Below, one piece after another: positions 4,701 through 18,160 of a DNA stretch of 33,642 nt. Source of the stretch: a virus; the IMG/VR virus record IMGVR_UViG_3300034375_001611, positions 1-33,642 of that record. One strand, given 5' to 3'. The position numbers and the translations under genes are program-made. Position 1 is the stretch's first letter; every line of letters begins with the position of its first letter. The notes below the pieces were generated by a model. It was not told where the DNA came from, ran no database searches, and saw nothing but the letters and a program-made list of their open reading frames with translations.

Positions 4701-5394
4701 AGAAAAACTAAATAAATATTTTTCTGATTATGTTTCTGATGTTATTGGTGGATTTTTAACTCCACTTAGAATGTTTAATGATTTTATAGATCAGGATCAA
4801 GAGTTTAGAGCGCCTGTACCAACAGGTGAATTTTTAACTGATACAACTAACAGATTAAAATCAAGCATACCTATAGTAAGAGAACAATTGCCAGAACTAG
4901 AATCACCAACAAGGGAAGCTACACCTGGAAGACCAGATACAGTACAAATACCTTTTACAAATATTAATGTTCCAGGCCCTCTTACAAGACAGCTTACTGG
5001 TGCTACTGTAAGAGAAGAAAAGAATGCAGCAGAAAGAGAGTTTGATAGATTAGGATTTAAAAGAAGAGATATATTACCTTACTCTGGTAACGCTATTGTA
5101 GATCAGACAAGAGCAAAATATATGGGTAAACCTGTAGAGATAATGGTTGGCACTTTAGTTGAATCTGATTTTTATAAATCTAAAACTAATGCAGAAAAAG
5201 AATTGTTAGTAAGAAAACTTTTACAATCAATAAGAGGTTCAGCTAACGATTACATTAAAGAGAATAAAATAAACGAAGAAGCGTTCCAGAAAGCATCATT
5301 TAATAGACAGCCTAAATACATGAAAAAGTTATTAGCTGAAAAAGGTATTACTTGGAAAACATTTAATGACACGAGCAACGGAGAGAATAGGTAG
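1756..5394 (+). CDS. Very large internal virion / DNA-ejection-type protein
   Basis: I use ATG 1756 (1212 aa) rather than the in-frame TTG at 1741, which lies inside the upstream gene. The N-terminus carries a duplicated EFKIPPPP motif encoded by an exact 24-bp direct repeat. Residues ~160-265 contain two Gly/Ala-rich hydrophobic stretches (YVGIGTLGAGLLAREG and ATLGAGLGSVLGGTIGGG), candidate membrane-insertion segments. A Pro/Val/Thr linker follows (repeated TPKVET), then a long helical body and a C-terminal region. No enzymatic motif was recognised. Size, glycine-rich membrane-active segments and position at the end of the structural module match the large internal or ejection proteins of podoviruses (the role of T7 gp16 or P22 gp16), which enter the host with the DNA. 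The function is inferred from architecture, not from a conserved domain. Confidence 0.7.
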   Translation: MAEFKIPPPPQEEVNEFKIPPPPEANDITQQNIAANGFVLPPVPQKNKKLSEAELKENPEFIKAAKSIYEWNESRNFYFKLDDKPKKLNSDKQYADYALRYMGWFNYNIPKMAKEASDLKFNANQQQREDFVTLMDMYDNKEASLAGTGRLIKGLATDPSTYVGIGTLGAGLLAREGVKQTAKQGIKELVKEGAKQGAKIGAIEGAAYSTVDNALRQSARVMSGQQEGFELGQSAKAATLGAGLGSVLGGTIGGGASFVKNKNKVPVQADEMVGPIDMVGPRVETPTPKVETPVAPEVVTPKVETAKSKSTKIPEILKIPKKPKVRTARSYIEGGAISRDFARMGELKQILESDKGFITSKYLAPKNSRGFTDFDQIQEKMQEDGFLPELQTFDGGDTPDFTNRIIDDLQMDRVHQDDQLLLTRWEEQTEQARTIRQTLDDFNIDYRGMSDDDVLVTYNKVINNEIPPVRDEVPLGVYADDIAAAEGGNINKVKADDVTDTPDGKDFQTDTTTGLNQKVIDVGQEIIKELNIPVSKNVRISDQLKEAVLLANSSPKFFNQFVDILKRNDLTVEELSSVFKESISDSARRMQQLSTAKQSMKRMGQELGEIAPDEGWYANFAKEYTDIVRDLDNIRRGLLVSQIATAMRNNTAQIGRVGMHTLIEIFDDVLDITFNPLRKAFGAKPKKVDGAESFRLMMNLTKNKKQSAELTEFLTKYFVNESDRLFTKYASEVADSSKAKVFKSAQKMVDGLNTLNRIQEFWYRRGMFATSIQDTLSKKGIDIKDVGINDDLLKYLNASDIEKAVDDALYFTYAKTPDNKLLKGFVDFANSVPFITTGVFPFARFMANAIDFQFRHSPLGFLKLLTPSEHKKIAAGDSKAFSEAVVGTTILLATIEAKRKGSEDHKWYEVETSSGKTIDMRPYFPLTPYLFVADVVTRLESGRNWGDPKDILQALTGAQFRAGASSQLVQNILDGMVGLDTEEKLNKYFSDYVSDVIGGFLTPLRMFNDFIDQDQEFRAPVPTGEFLTDTTNRLKSSIPIVREQLPELESPTREATPGRPDTVQIPFTNINVPGPLTRQLTGATVREEKNAAEREFDRLGFKRRDILPYSGNAIVDQTRAKYMGKPVEIMVGTLVESDFYKSKTNAEKELLVRKLLQSIRGSANDYIKENKINEEAFQKASFNRQPKYMKKLLAEKGITWKTFNDTSNGENR
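1762..1824 (+). repeat. Exact 24-bp direct repeat encoding EFKIPPPP
   Basis: Copies lie at 1762-1785 and 1801-1824, offset by 39 bp (13 codons), with no mismatch. They encode the duplicated EFKIPPPP motif at the N-terminus of the ejection-type protein. Exact nucleotide identity suggests a recent tandem duplication or conversion rather than old protein-level repetition. Confidence 0.85.
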
Positions 5395-5845
5395 GAGTGG
5401 CGAATACCTAACTTGCTCCGTGATAGCAAGGGAAACCGATACTGTAACGATTATGCCTCATGGTTCTCATGCAGACATTATCTTTGAATACGATAACCAA
5501 ATGTATCGCTGTCAAGTCAAGACAGTTACTCATATAGAGAAAGCTAGAAATAGTTGGCGGTTTGATCTACGTAAAGGATCACATAGTAAGTCAAGACAGT
5601 ACAAAGAAAATACCATTGATGTATTCGCCTTGGTTAATCTTAAATACCAGAATGTTTACTTCCTACCTTTTAACAATTGCAAACACCTACAATATTCTGT
5701 ACATGACAAACCCATGAAAGCTGTTAATTCAATAGAGAGTTTTAAAGAGGCTATGGATGCAATAATTAACTCGGATCATACTCGGATGGGTATATCAGTC
5801 CATGACATACCTTTTGAAAAAGCTCAGGAATTAGCGGTTATTTAA
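5366..5845 (+). CDS. PD-(D/E)XK-family nuclease next to attP
   Basis: This 159-residue protein has the layout of a small PD-(D/E)XK nuclease (the Holliday-junction resolvase / group I intron endonuclease-like branch). GRSGEYL carries a helix glutamate at residue 13, ADIIF supplies Asp37, and CQVKT supplies the Q-x-K pair at residues 50 and 52. Basic residues follow. The ATG lies inside the end of the ejection-protein gene (29-bp overlap), so it is the last gene of the virion transcript. Its final ~25 codons contain the left pair of attP arm-type repeats (5768-5792), and the tRNA-like core begins 6 bp after its stop. The nuclease gene and attP therefore form one conserved block. A role in DNA processing or in excluding host or rival DNA is possible; no substrate can be read. 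Confidence 0.7.
   Translation: MTRATERIGRSGEYLTCSVIARETDTVTIMPHGSHADIIFEYDNQMYRCQVKTVTHIEKARNSWRFDLRKGSHSKSRQYKENTIDVFALVNLKYQNVYFLPFNNCKHLQYSVHDKPMKAVNSIESFKEAMDAIINSDHTRMGISVHDIPFEKAQELAVI
5768..5792 (+). other. attP left arm: paired arm-type integrase sites (inferred)
   Basis: Two direct copies of CTCGGAT start at 5770 and 5781, exactly 11 bp apart, and the second is followed by GGGTA. The whole 25-bp block matches the block at 6007-6031 at 21 of 25 positions in the same orientation. Between them lies the tRNA-derived core. Paired helically phased direct repeats on both sides of a core are the usual form of arm-type sites for tyrosine integrases. The block is also coding sequence of the nuclease gene. 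Confidence 0.65.
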
Positions 5846-5850
5846 CTGTT

Positions 5851-5877
5851 CGGGGAGTAGCGCAGCCTGGTAGCGCA
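5851..5877 (+). other. attP: attP core: 5' part of a tRNA-Pro gene (acceptor 5' strand plus D arm)
   Basis: The 27 nt read as tRNA positions 1-26: CGGGGAG (acceptor 5' strand), TA, then a D arm with stem GCGC, loop AGCCTGGTA and stem GCGC, then A26. This is the form of bacterial tRNA-Pro. After that the match stops (GAATATTTTTTAC), with no anticodon arm, T arm or acceptor 3' strand, so it is not a working tRNA gene. A tRNA fragment 170 bp upstream of a tyrosine integrase gene, flanked by paired repeats, is best read as the identity segment shared with attB. It is unusual in carrying the 5' part of the tRNA, because tRNA-derived attP cores usually hold the 3' part. An IHF-like sequence with two mismatches lies at 5907-5919. 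Confidence 0.8.
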
Positions 5878-5934
5878 GAATATTTTTTACTCATCACGCG
5901 ATTTCACATCAATACTTTTTATTACTAAAAACCC

Positions 5935-5964
5935 TTGTTTTCTTTACAAGATTCAATTTATAAT
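5935..5964 (+). promoter_or_regulatory. Candidate integrase promoter
   Basis: TTGTTT (5935-5940) and a perfect TATAAT (5959-5964) are 18 bp apart. Transcription would start near 5971, giving a leader of about 75 nt before the integrase ATG. That leader contains the right arm-type sites, so integrase binding could repress its own gene. The -35 matches the consensus only in its first half. Confidence 0.4.
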
Positions 5965-6006
5965 CTACTCAATAGGTAACAAAGATACTCGTCATTCCGC
6001 AGTCAA

Positions 6007-6031
6007 AACACGGATAAAACACGGATGGGTA
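6007..6031 (+). other. attP right arm: paired arm-type integrase sites (inferred)
   Basis: Two direct copies of CACGGAT start at 6009 and 6020, again 11 bp apart and followed by GGGTA. The four differences from the left block (5768-5792) are T/A or C/A changes, and the spacing is identical. The first 11 bp also form a tandem duplication of AAAACACGGAT (6005-6026). The block ends 15 bp before the integrase ATG, partly next to its ribosome binding site (GAGGAG), which suggests autoregulation. Confidence 0.65.
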
Positions 6032-7577: not shown

Positions 7578-7763
7578 ATGGAAGAAAAAATATTTTTAGA
7601 TCAAAACGAATTAGCAAAAAGATGGATACGTTCTCCTAGAACATTAGAAAATTGGAGAGCAAAAGGAACTGGCCCGTCATACACAAAGATTGGTGGCAAA
7701 GTTCTTTATCGTCTTAGCGACATTGAAGAAATAGAAAATAAATCAGATACATCTGGAGAGTAG
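7578..7763 (+). CDS. AlpA/excisionase-like helix-turn-helix protein
   Basis: This 61-residue protein is a single MerR-type winged HTH domain of the HTH_17/AlpA kind. It shows ELAKRWIRSPRTLENWRAKG (helix-turn-helix), then GPSYTKIGGKVLYRLSDIEE (the wing and the diagnostic Y-R-x-x-D-I-E-x end). Proteins of this type act as excisionases or as activators of int/xis in temperate phages and integrative elements. It heads the rightward early operon and faces integrase across the DUF3310 gene, as expected for a lysogeny-control protein. It ends 1 bp before the TTG start of the next gene. The family call is firm; the excisionase role is inference. Confidence 0.8.
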   Translation: MEEKIFLDQNELAKRWIRSPRTLENWRAKGTGPSYTKIGGKVLYRLSDIEEIENKSDTSGE

Positions 7764-14267: not shown

Positions 14268-14519
14268 TTATAAGTTCTTGTTGTTTAGAAGTTTGTCTAT
14301 TGTATCATCCAATATTGGTTTTACAGAATCATAGCTTTTTTTATAGCCTTCATTACCTTTTTGATGTCCCCATGTAAGATGGTAATTTCCATGTAAAAAT
14401 ATTCTACTAAGTCTATCGCATAATTCTTTCTCAAGTTCTTTTCTAAGTTTTGTTTGTAACTCTGCATCTATATTAGTTAATACTTCTTCTGCTAGTTCTA
14501 CTAATTTCTTTTTATTCAT
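14268..14519 (-). CDS. Last gene of the leftward operon, helical charged protein
   Basis: This 83-residue product is unrecognised. It is largely helical and highly charged (ELAEEVLTNIDAELQTKLRKELEKELCDRLSRIF), with a middle segment HGNYHLTWGHQKGNEGY rich in His, Trp and Tyr. The ATG overlaps the upstream stop (ATGA), and AGAGGT serves as ribosome binding site. It is the 3'-most gene of the leftward set; no clear terminator is visible in the 51 bp before the convergent HTH gene. Confidence 0.65.
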   Translation of the reverse strand: MNKKKLVELAEEVLTNIDAELQTKLRKELEKELCDRLSRIFLHGNYHLTWGHQKGNEGYKKSYDSVKPILDDTIDKLLNNKNL

Positions 14520-14680
14520 TCTGTATTTACCTCTTTAGCAGTAATTATTAGTTCATAATCAAATTTATCGTTAATCAGTAATTCAAGGTATGCCTGTTTA
14601 ACTTCTTCTCTTGTCGGTTCTCCGCCTAAACTGAGATTAAATTCAATTGGTTTTAATTTAACTTTAATTGGCTGACTCAT
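14516..14680 (-). CDS. 54-aa leftward-operon protein
   Basis: The gene starts at ATG 14680 after AAAGGAA and overlaps both neighbours by ATGA junctions. The product begins MSQPIKVKLKPIEFNLSLGG, with a beta-type start, and is then helical (REEVKQAYLELLINDKF) with an acidic end. No family was recognised. The perfect gene-to-gene coupling is the main support. Confidence 0.6.
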   Translation of the reverse strand: MSQPIKVKLKPIEFNLSLGGEPTREEVKQAYLELLINDKFDYELIITAKEVNTE

Positions 14681-14835
14681 TGTTCCTTTAATAATTTTAA
14701 ATACAACGCATGATCTTTGCTTGTCATCATTATCTCAACTCTACGCATATTATCCTTTTTATTATTAATAAACTTAGCGGTTATCCTTGAGAGTTCTGGG
14801 TACTTTCTTTTTAAGTATTTCATATCTTGCTTCAT
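14677..14835 (-). CDS. 52-aa basic leftward-operon protein
   Basis: The gene starts at ATG 14835 with AAGGCGAG upstream and ends in an ATGA overlap. The product is basic (MKQDMKYLKRKYPELSRITA; KDNMRRVEIMM) and helical. No family was recognised. Confidence 0.55.
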   Translation of the reverse strand: MKQDMKYLKRKYPELSRITAKFINNKKDNMRRVEIMMTSKDHALYLKLLKEQ

Positions 14836-14927
14836 ATTCTCGCCTTGAATAGTTGGATTAATGCTATTAGCTTGTTATCTGATAAATGCCTTAAGTGTTT
14901 AGGTATTCGCCTTCTATCTATTTTCAT
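14832..14927 (-). CDS. 31-aa basic micro-protein
   Basis: The frame runs from ATG 14927 to a stop overlapping the next ATG (ATGA), with GAGG upstream. It lies inside the end of the 105-aa gene by 14 bp. The peptide is strongly basic (MKIDRRRIPKHLRHLSDNKL) with a hydrophobic helical end. Support is the coupled spacing only. Confidence 0.45.
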   Translation of the reverse strand: MKIDRRRIPKHLRHLSDNKLIALIQLFKARI

Positions 14928-15231
14928 GGTTAGTTGCCTCTTTTGTGTAAATGACAAAATAGTCATAACCTTTATCGCTTCCATCTTCGTTTATATATTC
15001 CCATTCAAGATTATAAAAGTTAGCAATATTTTCTATGTAGTGAGAATCAACATCGCTATATTCTCCATCTAAAAAGTCTTCCCATTTTTCTAAAGTGTTA
15101 TAACCTTCTTTAACAAAAAATTCTTTAAAGGTGTCATAACAAACCGAGTAAATGCTACATGGAGAATCGACCACATTTATAGATGTTGGTATATTGTGAG
15201 TTTCTTTTTCTGTTTTAAATTGTTTATTCAT
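14914..15231 (-). CDS. 105-aa acidic leftward-operon protein
   Basis: I choose the second ATG (15231). The GGAGG at 15242-15238 directly touches the first ATG (15237) but sits 6 nt from the second. The product (MNKQFKTEKETHNIPTSINV...) is acidic and aromatic-rich in its second half (EKWEDFLDGEYSDVDSHYIE; YFVIYTKEA). Acidic small phage proteins of this kind can be DNA mimics or inhibitors of host enzymes, but nothing specific identifies this one. Confidence 0.65.
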   Translation of the reverse strand: MNKQFKTEKETHNIPTSINVVDSPCSIYSVCYDTFKEFFVKEGYNTLEKWEDFLDGEYSDVDSHYIENIANFYNLEWEYINEDGSDKGYDYFVIYTKEATNHENR

Positions 15232-15322
15232 CTTCATCCTCCTTGGTTAGTAAAAGATATGTCCCGTGTAGGCAAAAAGCCATAAACGAGAATATTATTA
15301 TTATTCCTATTGTGTTGTTCAT
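15224..15322 (-). CDS. 32-aa single-span membrane micro-protein
   Basis: The frame runs from ATG 15322 (ATGA overlap with the gene before it; AGGAG 9 nt upstream) to a TAA inside the next gene's start. The peptide is MNNTIGIIIIFSFMAFCLHG, then TYLLLTKEDEDE: one hydrophobic span of ~22 residues and an acidic cytoplasmic-type tail. Its own tail codons encode the ribosome binding site of the next gene. Confidence 0.55.
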   Translation of the reverse strand: MNNTIGIIIIFSFMAFCLHGTYLLLTKEDEDE

Positions 15323-15453
15323 TGTGTTTGCTCCTGTGCTTCTTTATCTGTTTGGTAAATATTGCAATCATCACATTTCTGTACTTCTTGCACTTCTTTT
15401 TTTGTGTTGAATGTATCTATCCACCCAACACCATTACATAAATCGCATTTCAT
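15319..15453 (-). CDS. 44-aa zinc-ribbon micro-protein
   Basis: The gene starts at ATG 15453, overlapping the previous stop (ATGA), with AAGGAGGG upstream. Two CxxC pairs, KCDLCNG at the start and KCDDCN at residues ~26-31, form a compact zinc ribbon. The stop overlaps the next ATG. Intact cysteine pairs and full coupling support a real gene. Confidence 0.65.
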   Translation of the reverse strand: MKCDLCNGVGWIDTFNTKKEVQEVQKCDDCNIYQTDKEAQEQTQ

Positions 15454-15725
15454 CTATTAGCCCTCCTTAGTCGTGCTTTCTCGTTGTTGTGTTGCCTTGT
15501 CTCCTCGTTCAATGGTTTGTGTAGTTCCTCTAAGTAGTCAAGGGCGATCTTTTTTTGATCCTTGGTTAGTTCTATAAGGATTTTATAATCTGATCTTTTA
15601 TAAGTTGGGTATTGGTAAAAACATTTTTCTTTGTTTTTGTATTCCCATAAAACAGGTTTATCTATTCCTTTGATATGGTCTTGCCATGTAAAATGATCAT
15701 CATCAAATTTATCTGCAAATGTCAT
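15450..15725 (-). CDS. 91-aa leftward-operon protein
   Basis: The product is unrecognised. It has an aromatic, acidic first half (MTFADKFDDDHFTWQDHIKG; YKNKEKCFYQYPTYKRSDY) and a basic helical C-terminus (ETRQHNNEKARLRRANR). The ribosome binding site is AGGAGG at 8 nt, and it overlaps both neighbours by ATGA-type junctions. Confidence 0.65.
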   Translation of the reverse strand: MTFADKFDDDHFTWQDHIKGIDKPVLWEYKNKEKCFYQYPTYKRSDYKILIELTKDQKKIALDYLEELHKPLNEETRQHNNEKARLRRANR

Positions 15726-15880
15726 TGTGCGGCCTCCTGGTTGTTTTTATTAATCCACCATTTTGCAACGGTGTAGTGTTCAGCATTGCAATCATTACAA
15801 TAACAATCCATTTCATTGTTTTTATCTTTTATGATCTCTATGTTGCTAGAGGTACAGTTATCGCATAATAAATTGCTCAT
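15722..15880 (-). CDS. 52-aa zinc-ribbon micro-protein
   Basis: The gene starts at ATG 15880 after GGAGG, and its start shares a base with the previous stop (TAATG). Two pairs, LCDNCTS (residues ~6-9) and CYCNDC (~26-31), form a zinc ribbon, followed by EHYTVAKWW. It resembles the 44-aa protein two genes downstream in plan, suggesting duplicated zinc adaptors in one operon. Confidence 0.65.
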   Translation of the reverse strand: MSNLLCDNCTSSNIEIIKDKNNEMDCYCNDCNAEHYTVAKWWINKNNQEAAQ

Positions 15881-16209
15881 TATTGCACCTCCAATTGTTT
15901 AAGTGTGTTGTCATACTCTAGCTCTGTGATGTATGAATAAGATTTTAAAAATTGCTCTTTGGTTATAGTGTTAAAGTCAATCATCTTTTCCTCATCATCT
16001 ATGAAGTTAGATTCATTAATAACATTAATATCTTTTGTTATGTGTAGCCTGTATGTGTTATCGCCTACATCTAAAACAATCTCATTATTGTCATAATCCA
16101 GGTATGGATATATTTCCGGATTTTCTGCAAGGTTAAATTCTTTTTGATACTGATCGTTATTCATAACCGTATCGTAAATTTCCTCTAATATTCTTGTTTT
16201 GGTTTCCAT
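15880..16209 (-). CDS. 109-aa acidic leftward-operon protein
   Basis: This protein is acidic, with a low-complexity Asn/Asp/Tyr segment (YPYLDYDNNEIVLDVGDN), beta-strand-like repeats and a helical end (KEQFLKSYSYITELEYDNTL). The ribosome binding site is GGGGG at good spacing. No family was recognised. High acidity would fit a mimic or antagonist protein, but there is no direct evidence. Confidence 0.65.
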   Translation of the reverse strand: METKTRILEEIYDTVMNNDQYQKEFNLAENPEIYPYLDYDNNEIVLDVGDNTYRLHITKDINVINESNFIDDEEKMIDFNTITKEQFLKSYSYITELEYDNTLKQLEVQ

Positions 16210-16217
16210 AATTCCCC

Positions 16218-16316
16218 CTAGTTTTTTAAAAAATGATTAATAAGATAAGAACCGTGCCACGCTTTTTTATCACGTGGCTTTTCGGTTAGTTTGATTAGTA
16301 GTTGTTTAAATGTCAT
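16218..16316 (-). CDS. 32-aa basic micro-protein
   Basis: The gene starts at ATG 16316, 2 bp after the upstream stop, with GGAGTT as ribosome binding site, and ends just before the next gene's GGGGG. The peptide reads MTFKQLLIKLTEKPRDKKAW, then HGSYLINHFLKN: basic, helical and aromatic. It fills an otherwise unexplained gap. Confidence 0.5.
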   Translation of the reverse strand: MTFKQLLIKLTEKPRDKKAWHGSYLINHFLKN

Positions 16317-16318
16317 GG

Positions 16319-16531
16319 TTATAACTCCTCTTTGTTTCTTTCAACTGTAAACTTGCCAACTGTATTTCCGTTTATATCGTTGACCTTTCCAAAGTCGCTG
16401 ATCTCAATTCTTGGTAATATGTTTTTAAGTATTCTTTCAACTTCTGAATAATTAAAAGTTGGGTTTTCTGAATCCTCGCAATGATTCCAAAAAGCCGAGT
16501 TTAATGTTTCTATATCAATGGTTATTCTCAT
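16319..16531 (-). CDS. 70-aa leftward-operon protein
   Basis: This unrecognised protein has a beta-type start (MRITIDIETLNSAFWNHCED), a helical middle (SEVERILKNILPRIEI) and a beta-hairpin-like end. The ribosome binding site is GAGGTGG. It starts directly at the stop of the 150-aa gene. Confidence 0.65.
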   Translation of the reverse strand: MRITIDIETLNSAFWNHCEDSENPTFNYSEVERILKNILPRIEISDFGKVNDINGNTVGKFTVERNKEEL

Positions 16532-16984
16532 TTATGCCACCTCACAATCTAAAAACATCTGACATACATCCCAAGAGATAGAATCTTGCGGGACGTTTAT
16601 AGATGCTCCGTCATACCAATCCATGAAATGGTATTCGATGACATCAACGCTATGATCATTTTGTGCTGTGTATATTCTGAACTCGTCAGAAGGGCCACCC
16701 CATGAAAGCAAAAGCCTATAATAACCAGTCTTATTGTCAAAAGTTCCAGCTTCTATATAGTCCCAAGAGAGGGCATCATTATTGACATAATCAAATAAAT
16801 CCTCATATTCGTGGAAATAGTTACTCTTATGCTCATCAATAACTTTTAACGCTATTTGCTCGCCTTCTGTAGCGCCATCAAACTCCATGTAGTAATTTAG
16901 CGCTTCTCTATATGTTTGCTCAACGTGGTTGAACTGACCTTTTACTAAGTCTTTACAAGTTAATTGTTTTTCTTTGTTTGTCAT
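16532..16984 (-). CDS. 150-aa protein with LSWGGPSDEF motif
   Basis: This is the largest gene of the leftward operon. The C-terminal half carries YYRLLLSWGGPSDEFRIY, then IEYHFMDWYDGASINV. A 'y.lLLswGGPsdefr...dW.dga' pattern recurs in small phage and mobile-element proteins of unknown function. The N-terminal half is helical and acidic (REALNYYMEFDGATEGEQIA). The ribosome binding site is AGGAGG within a 14-bp leader (16991-17004) identical to the one before the 57-aa gene. It lies downstream of an intrinsic terminator, so its expression needs read-through or its own weak promoter. An antagonist of a host factor is a reasonable guess, nothing more. Confidence 0.7.
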   Translation of the reverse strand: MTNKEKQLTCKDLVKGQFNHVEQTYREALNYYMEFDGATEGEQIALKVIDEHKSNYFHEYEDLFDYVNNDALSWDYIEAGTFDNKTGYYRLLLSWGGPSDEFRIYTAQNDHSVDVIEYHFMDWYDGASINVPQDSISWDVCQMFLDCEVA

Positions 16985-17397: not shown

Positions 17398-17892
17398 ATG
17401 GAGCAAAAAACACCAAAAAAAGAGCTAAAAACCACAAAAAAGGGCGGTAGAAAGCGCATTAATATTGATCTGGAACAAGTAGAGAATCTTGCTTCACGTG
17501 GTCTTGGTACTACTCAAATCGCCCGTGCTTTGGGCGTTTCATGGAATACGATAGACCGCAATAGGAAACGATCTGGTGATTTTGAAGAGGCTTATAAAAG
17601 GGGAAGGGCGAAAGGGTTGGCGCAAGTTACAAATTCTCTCTTTACCTCGGCAACAGATGGCAATGTAACCGCCCAGATATTCTACCTAAAGAACCAAGAT
17701 GCAAAGACCTGGAAGGATAGGCAAGAAGTAGTGACCGCAACTGTAAATCTTAATGATGTTTTAAGCGGTGCTAAACAAAGACTCGGACAGAACACGGATG
17801 AAAATAAACTAAAGGTTTTAAATCCTTTACCTACAACATCTAAAGATAAGAGCAGTCTGGTAAATAATCAGACTGATAAAAAAAAGCGGTAA
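17398..17892 (+). CDS. terS: Terminase small subunit
   Basis: This 164-residue protein has a Lys-rich N-terminus and then a helix-turn-helix (LASRGLGTTQIARALGVSWNTIDRNRKRSGDF, residues ~33-64) for pac/cos recognition. An oligomerisation helix region follows (SLFTSATDGNVTAQIFYLKNQDAKTWKDRQ), which is the signature of many phage small terminases. A disordered, basic C-tail closes it. It starts the late rightward module and is followed, after a 29-aa peptide, by TerL. The ribosome binding site is weak (AAGAGGG, 16 nt away). The late promoter is not clear; the 155-bp divergent region contains an AT-rich stem (CAAAAA/TTTTTG). Confidence 0.85.
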   Translation: MEQKTPKKELKTTKKGGRKRINIDLEQVENLASRGLGTTQIARALGVSWNTIDRNRKRSGDFEEAYKRGRAKGLAQVTNSLFTSATDGNVTAQIFYLKNQDAKTWKDRQEVVTATVNLNDVLSGAKQRLGQNTDENKLKVLNPLPTTSKDKSSLVNNQTDKKKR

Positions 17893-18070
17893 ATTTTGGC
17901 GGTTATGACTCCTCCTCATGGTCGTAGCGTTCAAGGGTTCGCCAACAAGTAACGAATTTATAAGATGCTCCTATAAATATAATGCTTGTACCCCCCCTTG
18001 ATTTTATTGCGCGGGGTATATTACGTGTAACTGTTGCGATAATTTTTTTTAATTTTTTTTGGAGCAAAAT

Positions 18071-18160
18071 ATGAAAGAGGTAATACGAGAAATCTTAGCA
18101 ATACTTAGCATTGGTGCTGTAGGCAACTTTGCAATATTTTTAATACTGGTGCATATATGA
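18071..18160 (+). CDS. 29-aa membrane peptide translationally coupled to TerL
   Basis: ATG 18071 with GGAG at 18061-18064 (6 nt) encodes MKEVIREILAILSIGAVGNF, then AIFLILVHI: one hydrophobic helix after a charged start. The stop overlaps the TerL ATG (ATGA), so its translation may feed TerL. The 178 bp before it (17893-18070) hold no gene. They contain a C7 run, a TACCCC/GGGGTA inverted repeat (17989-17994, 18013-18018) and a TATAAT without a -35 (17978-17983), possibly the packaging-site region. Confidence 0.55.
   Translation: MKEVIREILAILSIGAVGNFAIFLILVHI

Follow-up and report, generated by a model that had tools for sequence, protein, structure and literature searches.

The integrase locus

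The window, i.e. the whole stretch of DNA that we analysed, is a 33.6-kb virus record encoding an SU10-type portal, TerL, TerS, a set of recombination genes and a tyrosine integrase (table 1). On the basis of profile searches and an AF2 model, this integrase is a lambda-type protein with predicted domains for arm binding, core binding and catalysis, residues 1–57 being the arm-binding domain (beta-beta-beta-alpha). The catalytic domain matches PF00589 (E 1e-13), and residues R224, K248, R306, H328 and Y337 are invariant across an alignment of 21 integrase sequences. In the model, the N-terminal beta-beta-beta-alpha domain has strands at 13–16, 19–26 and 29–37 and a helix at 42–57 (pLDDT about 81–92). 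The Arm-DNA-bind_3 profile scores 26.7 bits, slightly below its cut-off of 27. A Foldseek search with the model gave lambda Int (1z1b) as the top match, and retrieved the arm-type domain 3jtz with a probability of 0.97 but E 1.1. We graded the candidate int promoter as weak, because a consensus scan did not report it. Elsewhere in the window, the minus strand of positions 14268–16984 carries variable ORFs that are almost without counterpart in the relatives and include no recognisable repressor.

Table 1. Features of the window discussed in the text.
Feature	Position	Strand	Evidence or remark
PD-(D/E)XK nuclease-like ORF	5366..5845	+	PF11645; overlaps P arm
P-arm pair of putative arm-type sites	5768..5792	+	units 5770-5776 and 5781-5787
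Putative attP core, from the tRNA-Pro 5' half (D-arm and 5' strand of the acceptor)	5850..5877	+	BLAST to annotated tRNA-Pro genes
Candidate int promoter, TTGTTT-18-TATAAT	5935..5964	+	between core and P' arm; kept in relatives by eye
P'-arm pair of putative arm-type sites	6007..6031	+	units 6009-6015 and 6020-6026
Tyrosine integrase (int), 363 aa	6047..7138	+	Pfam Phage_integrase, Phage_int_M, Arm-DNA-bind_3; AF2; Foldseek
Excisionase-like HTH protein (candidate Xis)	7578..7763	+	phrog_66 E 1e-7; HTH_17
Terminase small subunit (terS)	17398..17892	+	phrog_309 E 1e-28
Third, remote pair, CTCGGAC-AGAA-CACGGAT, in terS	17782..17799	+	overlaps end of AKQRL codons; one mismatch

Repeat blocks around a tRNA-like core

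Two 25-bp blocks, AACTCGGATCATACTCGGATGGGTA on the P side and AACACGGATAAAACACGGATGGGTA on the P' side, are the sole direct repeat detected between positions 5600 and 6200. The sequence-only reading had reported that they match at 21 of 25 positions, which is accurate to the base and well above the expectation from shuffled sequences: a 25-mer repeat with at least 21/25 identities was found in 0/1000 dinucleotide shuffles of this 601-bp region, and two perfect pairs, at 11-bp spacing and built on almost the same unit, in 0/2000. We also recovered the reported internal structure, i.e. two CWCGGAT units per block in the same orientation, spaced by exactly 11 bp (starting at 5770/5781 and 6009/6020) and followed by GGGTA. 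The P pair falls within the 3'-terminal part of the PD-(D/E)XK ORF, and the P' pair is located 15 bp upstream of the int ATG, in the leader.

The blocks were also said to bracket a tRNA-like core. A core indeed lies between them, at 57 bp on the P side and 129 bp on the P' side, and it matches the 5' half of a tRNA-Pro. Among relatives with this core, sequences diverge immediately 3' of GCGCA, as expected for a phage copy of the first 27–28 nt of the tRNA gene. With this match, attP carries a tRNA fragment that would rebuild the gene on integration, and, as read from the phage repeats and the core alone, repeated arm-type sites flank a core common to the phage and its predicted host target. 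Neither ARAGORN nor Rfam called the truncated tRNA in the window. We infer that the phage would integrate into the 5' half of tRNA-Pro. Such 5' fragments are rare but known (159 islands in Islander versus 3760, PMC4383910). An alignment scan of genome contigs retrieved no prophage relative, and attB, attL and attR were therefore not sighted. A search with a 40-mer of tRNA-Glu gave 0 matches, and a scan of viral contigs for a tRNA-Pro pattern, made to find integrated copies, gave 6 records. Other cores in the relatives were assigned by eye to Glu, Lys and Val.

Conservation of the layout in relatives

Two scans of viral contigs yielded about 70 relatives (36–100% identity), which are metagenomic contigs and may include chimeras. 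In nearly all of those that retain a core, pairs of 7-bp units spaced by 11 bp flank it, and the core TGGT and the first P' unit are 141 bp apart. The first P unit lies at -98/-99 from this TGGT in clades A, B and C, at -87 in D and at -110 in E and in the relative L140, i.e. in steps of approximately one helical turn. In clade D2 (L033–L036, L115), the P pair escaped the strict pattern, and a best-match routine placed it at -110. The units differ between clades: CWCGGAT or VACGGAT in A, GGCAAAT in B, GACAGAT in C, CGCGACW in D, mostly TGCGACW or TGCCACT in D2, GKCGACW in E and GACGGAT in F. When the unit changes from one clade to another, it changes on both arms together. The exception is L005, whose P arm is B-type and whose P' arm and integrase are A-type. 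Another exceptional relative is L045, in which a tRNA-Pro core accompanies an E-type catalytic domain. Both are apparent recombinants, which may reflect real recombination or assembly chimerism. Two further relatives, L054 and L059, keep an E-type integrase N-terminus while the core and the P arm are lost and P' is decayed; the integrase is intact in L054 and frameshifted in L059, whose record retains the terS pair described below. The PD-(D/E)XK ORF does not look required for this layout, because the P arm of L032 (clade D) lies outside such sequence. We found no counterpart of this ORF in the D-clade record G013.

Arm motifs covary with the integrase N-terminus

The sequence-only reading had predicted covariation between arm motif and integrase N-terminus across relatives. 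This was borne out: among 14 representatives, arm-motif distance was correlated with distance in integrase residues 1–42 (Mantel r=0.79, p=5e-5, where the permutation removes relatedness only in part), with L005, L054 and L059 as exceptions. In contrast, the correlations with the catalytic domain (r=-0.07) and with the core-binding domain (r=-0.03) were close to zero, and the partial correlation with residues 1–42 given the catalytic domain was 0.82.

The comparison of A2 and B relatives localizes the change. The integrases of L006 (A2) and L016 (B) share 55% identity in residues 1–42 and 99–100% from residue 43. At the DNA level (L013 versus L018 or L021, in 30-bp steps), the two groups are mostly 90–100% identical around int, with islands of low identity at the P arm (-300 to -240) and from -90 to +120 of int, which covers P' and codons 1–40. 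Further dips occur near +180 (80–83%, one step) and at the far edge, -420 (70–72%). This alignment shows a natural swap of the integrase N-domain together with the arms. Arm and core types assort independently, since L140 (record G012) combines A-like arms with a tRNA-Glu core, and L122 (G010) combines E arms with a tRNA-Pro core. We tabulated 40 genes of the window. Of those that occur in each of the five A and B relatives, the integrase N-domain alone split class A from class B. TerS and the candidate Xis did not separate the classes, and the latter showed no agreement with motif class. Recognition of the arm sites by the integrase N-terminal domain is thus strongly supported by this covariation and by the natural swap, and the comparative data strongly support the blocks at 5768–5792 and 6007–6031 being arm-type sites of the phage integrase.

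A third pair in terS

A scan of the window allowing one mismatch located a third pair within terS, 11.8 kb from attP. Such a pair arose in 11/2000 simulated genomes (expected 0.0055 per genome). We then scanned 11 genomes whole, i.e. the window and ten relatives, and in each of them found that the genome's own motif forms pairs at three places, namely P, P' and terS. The terS pair carries one mismatch in the window, G001 and G010. There were extra pairs in G004, in a second terS copy at the contig ends, and in G006, G007 and G009, where the palindrome GTCGAC produces overlapping one-mismatch matches on the opposite strand. The motifs of other clades were absent from the 11 genomes (three motifs scanned: A, B and E), and the concordance of P and terS pairs within genomes exceeded that of permuted genomes (p=4e-5). 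The D-clade record G013 and that of L140 also have their own motif in terS, the site of L140 being GGCGGAC-AGAT-GACGGAT. Hence, the interpretation of the blocks as attP arm sites, as proposed from the sequence, is supported by the relatives but was incomplete: it missed the terS pair, and because the same site also occurs there, acting as an arm site of attP is probably not the whole role of the motif.

A separate TerS scan provided 49 distinct terS loci that share an AKxRL anchor. Their self-identity peaks at 0.88 for a spacing of 11 bp, at the one AKxRL position, whereas spacings of 9, 10, 12 and 13 bp reach at most 0.57 at any position. The pair thus occurs at the same position across the 49 loci, with clade-specific units, and the terS pairs of relatives L155, L158, L160, L164, L187 and L188 and of L189–L267 followed the clade motif. 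The peptide encoded by the pair varies by clade (GQNTD, HGYNTD, GKYTAN, GDSMAT), whereas the rest of TerS, HTH region included, is nearly the same across the A, B and E genomes read. We take this contrast as a sign that selection acts on the DNA of the terS pair rather than on the protein. Since the terS copy tracks the clade motif while TerS hardly changes, the integrase N-domain probably binds terS too.

In records retrieved through TerS alone, the terS pair predicted the arms. The prediction was clean in G026 (L233), where the terS units are GGCGGAC/GACGGAT and each arm has a GACGGAT pair; by eye, the core between them corresponds to the 5' half of tRNA-Lys. The prediction was looser in G027 and G028, where terS units GGCGGTT/GACAAAT led to pairs 240 bp apart that share GACAAAT, with a core between them read by eye as the 5' half of tRNA-Val. 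A pattern scan with GGCAACT, a motif known from terS only (L227), gave no convincing attP among the matches listed. Perfect pairs were absent from the distant terS tested (among L250–L256 and L262), except L253. In a control on lambda, an arm motif matched at one place only, and the control was dropped.

Two more distant phages, G029 (L262) and G035 (L253), have pairs at attP and terS that are suggestive, but these pairs are weak or have another spacing. The two may have a three-site layout with units ACAACCA and GCACCA; the units of G035 are spaced by 10 bp at one place, and the core of G029 resembles the 3' end of a tRNA.

The gap between terS and terL holds a conserved non-coding block (17990–18075; CCCCCCCTT...GGGGTATATTACGTGTAACTGTTGCG...TTTTTTTT), common to nearly all aligned relatives, which could be a late promoter, a terminator or a packaging element.

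A possible role for the integrase beyond attP

The likely joint explanation of these patterns is that P and P' are attP arm sites of a lambda-type integrase whose N-domain would also act at terS, where it would signal the integration state. Each pair would seat two integrase N-terminal domains one helical turn apart. Integrase bound at P and P' would bridge the arms to the core copied from the 5' half of the host tRNA-Pro, phage and chromosome would recombine at this core, and the tRNA would be rebuilt at one junction. This part corresponds to the established scheme of lambda and L5. The same N-domain would recognise the third pair, 11.8 kb away. Integrase at terS would most likely report that the genome is in the integration state, and could either block terS/terL transcription or stop terminase from starting packaging on DNA held by the integrase. 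The terS site may function as a brake on packaging, as a guide for terminase or as a block of late transcription, an explanation that draws on position and analogy only. We favour a brake, either on terS/terL transcription or on the initiation of packaging, because the minus-strand region has no conserved repressor gene and recombinase-fold repressors are known. In broader terms, it is nearly as likely as not, and we propose it tentatively, that in this marine phage group the integrase also regulates packaging or late expression through a dedicated, co-evolving site in terS, by restraining or positioning terminase.

Alternative explanations

Chance has a negligible probability. Short two-copy repeats are common, and the blocks could be such repeats in AT-rich DNA, but this is refuted by the shuffles (0/1000 and 0/2000) and by the conservation and covariation across clades. 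It is quite improbable that the pairs are operators of a separate phage repressor or regulator and stand around the tRNA core incidentally. From its place in the int leader, the P' pair could be an operator of int, and the third pair, located in terS, one of late genes; the repressor SroF is among the Foldseek matches to the integrase model, and recombinase-fold repressors that bind prophage-wide repeats exist, such as MrpR of SPbeta (PMC10516654). However, of the window genes shared by all five A and B relatives, only the integrase N-domain separates classes A and B, and the minus-strand ORFs at 14.2–17.0 kb include no conserved candidate repressor. The arm-to-core distances are conserved, and so are the catalytic residues of the integrase, unlike those of MrpR.

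Two other explanations concern the terS pair. Headful phages often have their pac sites within or near terS, which is relevant for both. In one, the integrase binds attP only, and the terS pair is retained for self-recognition by TerS or as a pac site. TerS proteins bind pac DNA with HTH motifs arranged in a ring (PMC4737164), but here the HTH region of TerS is near-identical in clades with wholly different terS pairs, and these pairs agree with the attP arms of their own genome, which makes the explanation improbable. In the other, integrase at the terS pair would promote packaging as a guide that brings terminase to its start site, by analogy with Tn916 Int and Orf20 at oriT. In that system Int has been reported to direct the cleavage of oriT by Orf20 (Rocco and Churchward 2006, as cited in PMC6540685). 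The explanation would need integrase in the late stage of lytic growth, and we regard it as rather unlikely. We thus retain the joint explanation, with integrase at attP and, as a signal of integration state, at terS.

Arm-site recognition by integrases has mostly been solved phage by phage. In these relatives, integrase N-domains and the DNA sites that match them occur as a natural series, clean swap included, from which a residue-to-base code could be derived. If the terS site is bound, integration would be linked to packaging or late expression, and the phage would have a simple means against packaging an integrated genome with adjoining host DNA.

Comparison with known systems

The attP layout is of a known kind, and we found no report of a remote arm-type site in terS in the open-access literature, which was searched only partly on this point. 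The closest likeness is with CrimD and other Cluster K1 mycobacteriophages, in the available part of their description (PMC3203893): an arm-type pair lies on each side of a core taken from an RNA gene, the core is on the 5' side of int, and among close relatives differences in the arm bases accompany differences at N-terminal residues of the integrase. The differences are that P3/P4 are inverted and the core lies in tmRNA, whereas the pairs of the window are direct and its core is a tRNA-Pro; that variation there concerns mainly one base position and two residues, whereas here it involves the whole motif and a swap of 40 codons; and that a terS site, present in the window, is not among the features reported in that part. 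The arm-type pairs of L5 and Giles attP (cited in the same part of PMC3203893) are direct, as in the window. Unlike the window, L5 has several more arm sites, and this citation of it does not mention a remote terS site. In Cluster J mycobacteriophages (PMC3706429), pairs also flank the core, and arm-like sites occur at the start of int too, where a regulatory role for Int was suggested. There, no systematic match of arm sites with N-terminal type was seen, and the extra sites are at int, whereas here they are in terS.

Other systems resemble the proposed regulatory role. The arm sites of KplE1 IntS overlap the int regulatory region, as here, so that Int can repress its own gene (PMC2951348). 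Unlike in KplE1, the P' pair of the window lies downstream of the promoter-like sequence, and autoregulation is putative. The likeness with Tn916 (PMC6540685) is that an integrase acts at a DNA-processing site apart from the recombination site. However, Tn916 is a conjugative transposon with a relaxase and an oriT, whereas the window encodes a phage terminase and integrase binding at terS is predicted. Finally, MrpR of SPbeta is an integrase-fold protein that acts on prophage-wide repeats but lacks catalysis (PMC10516654), whereas the integrase of the window keeps both its catalytic residues and a predicted arm-binding domain.
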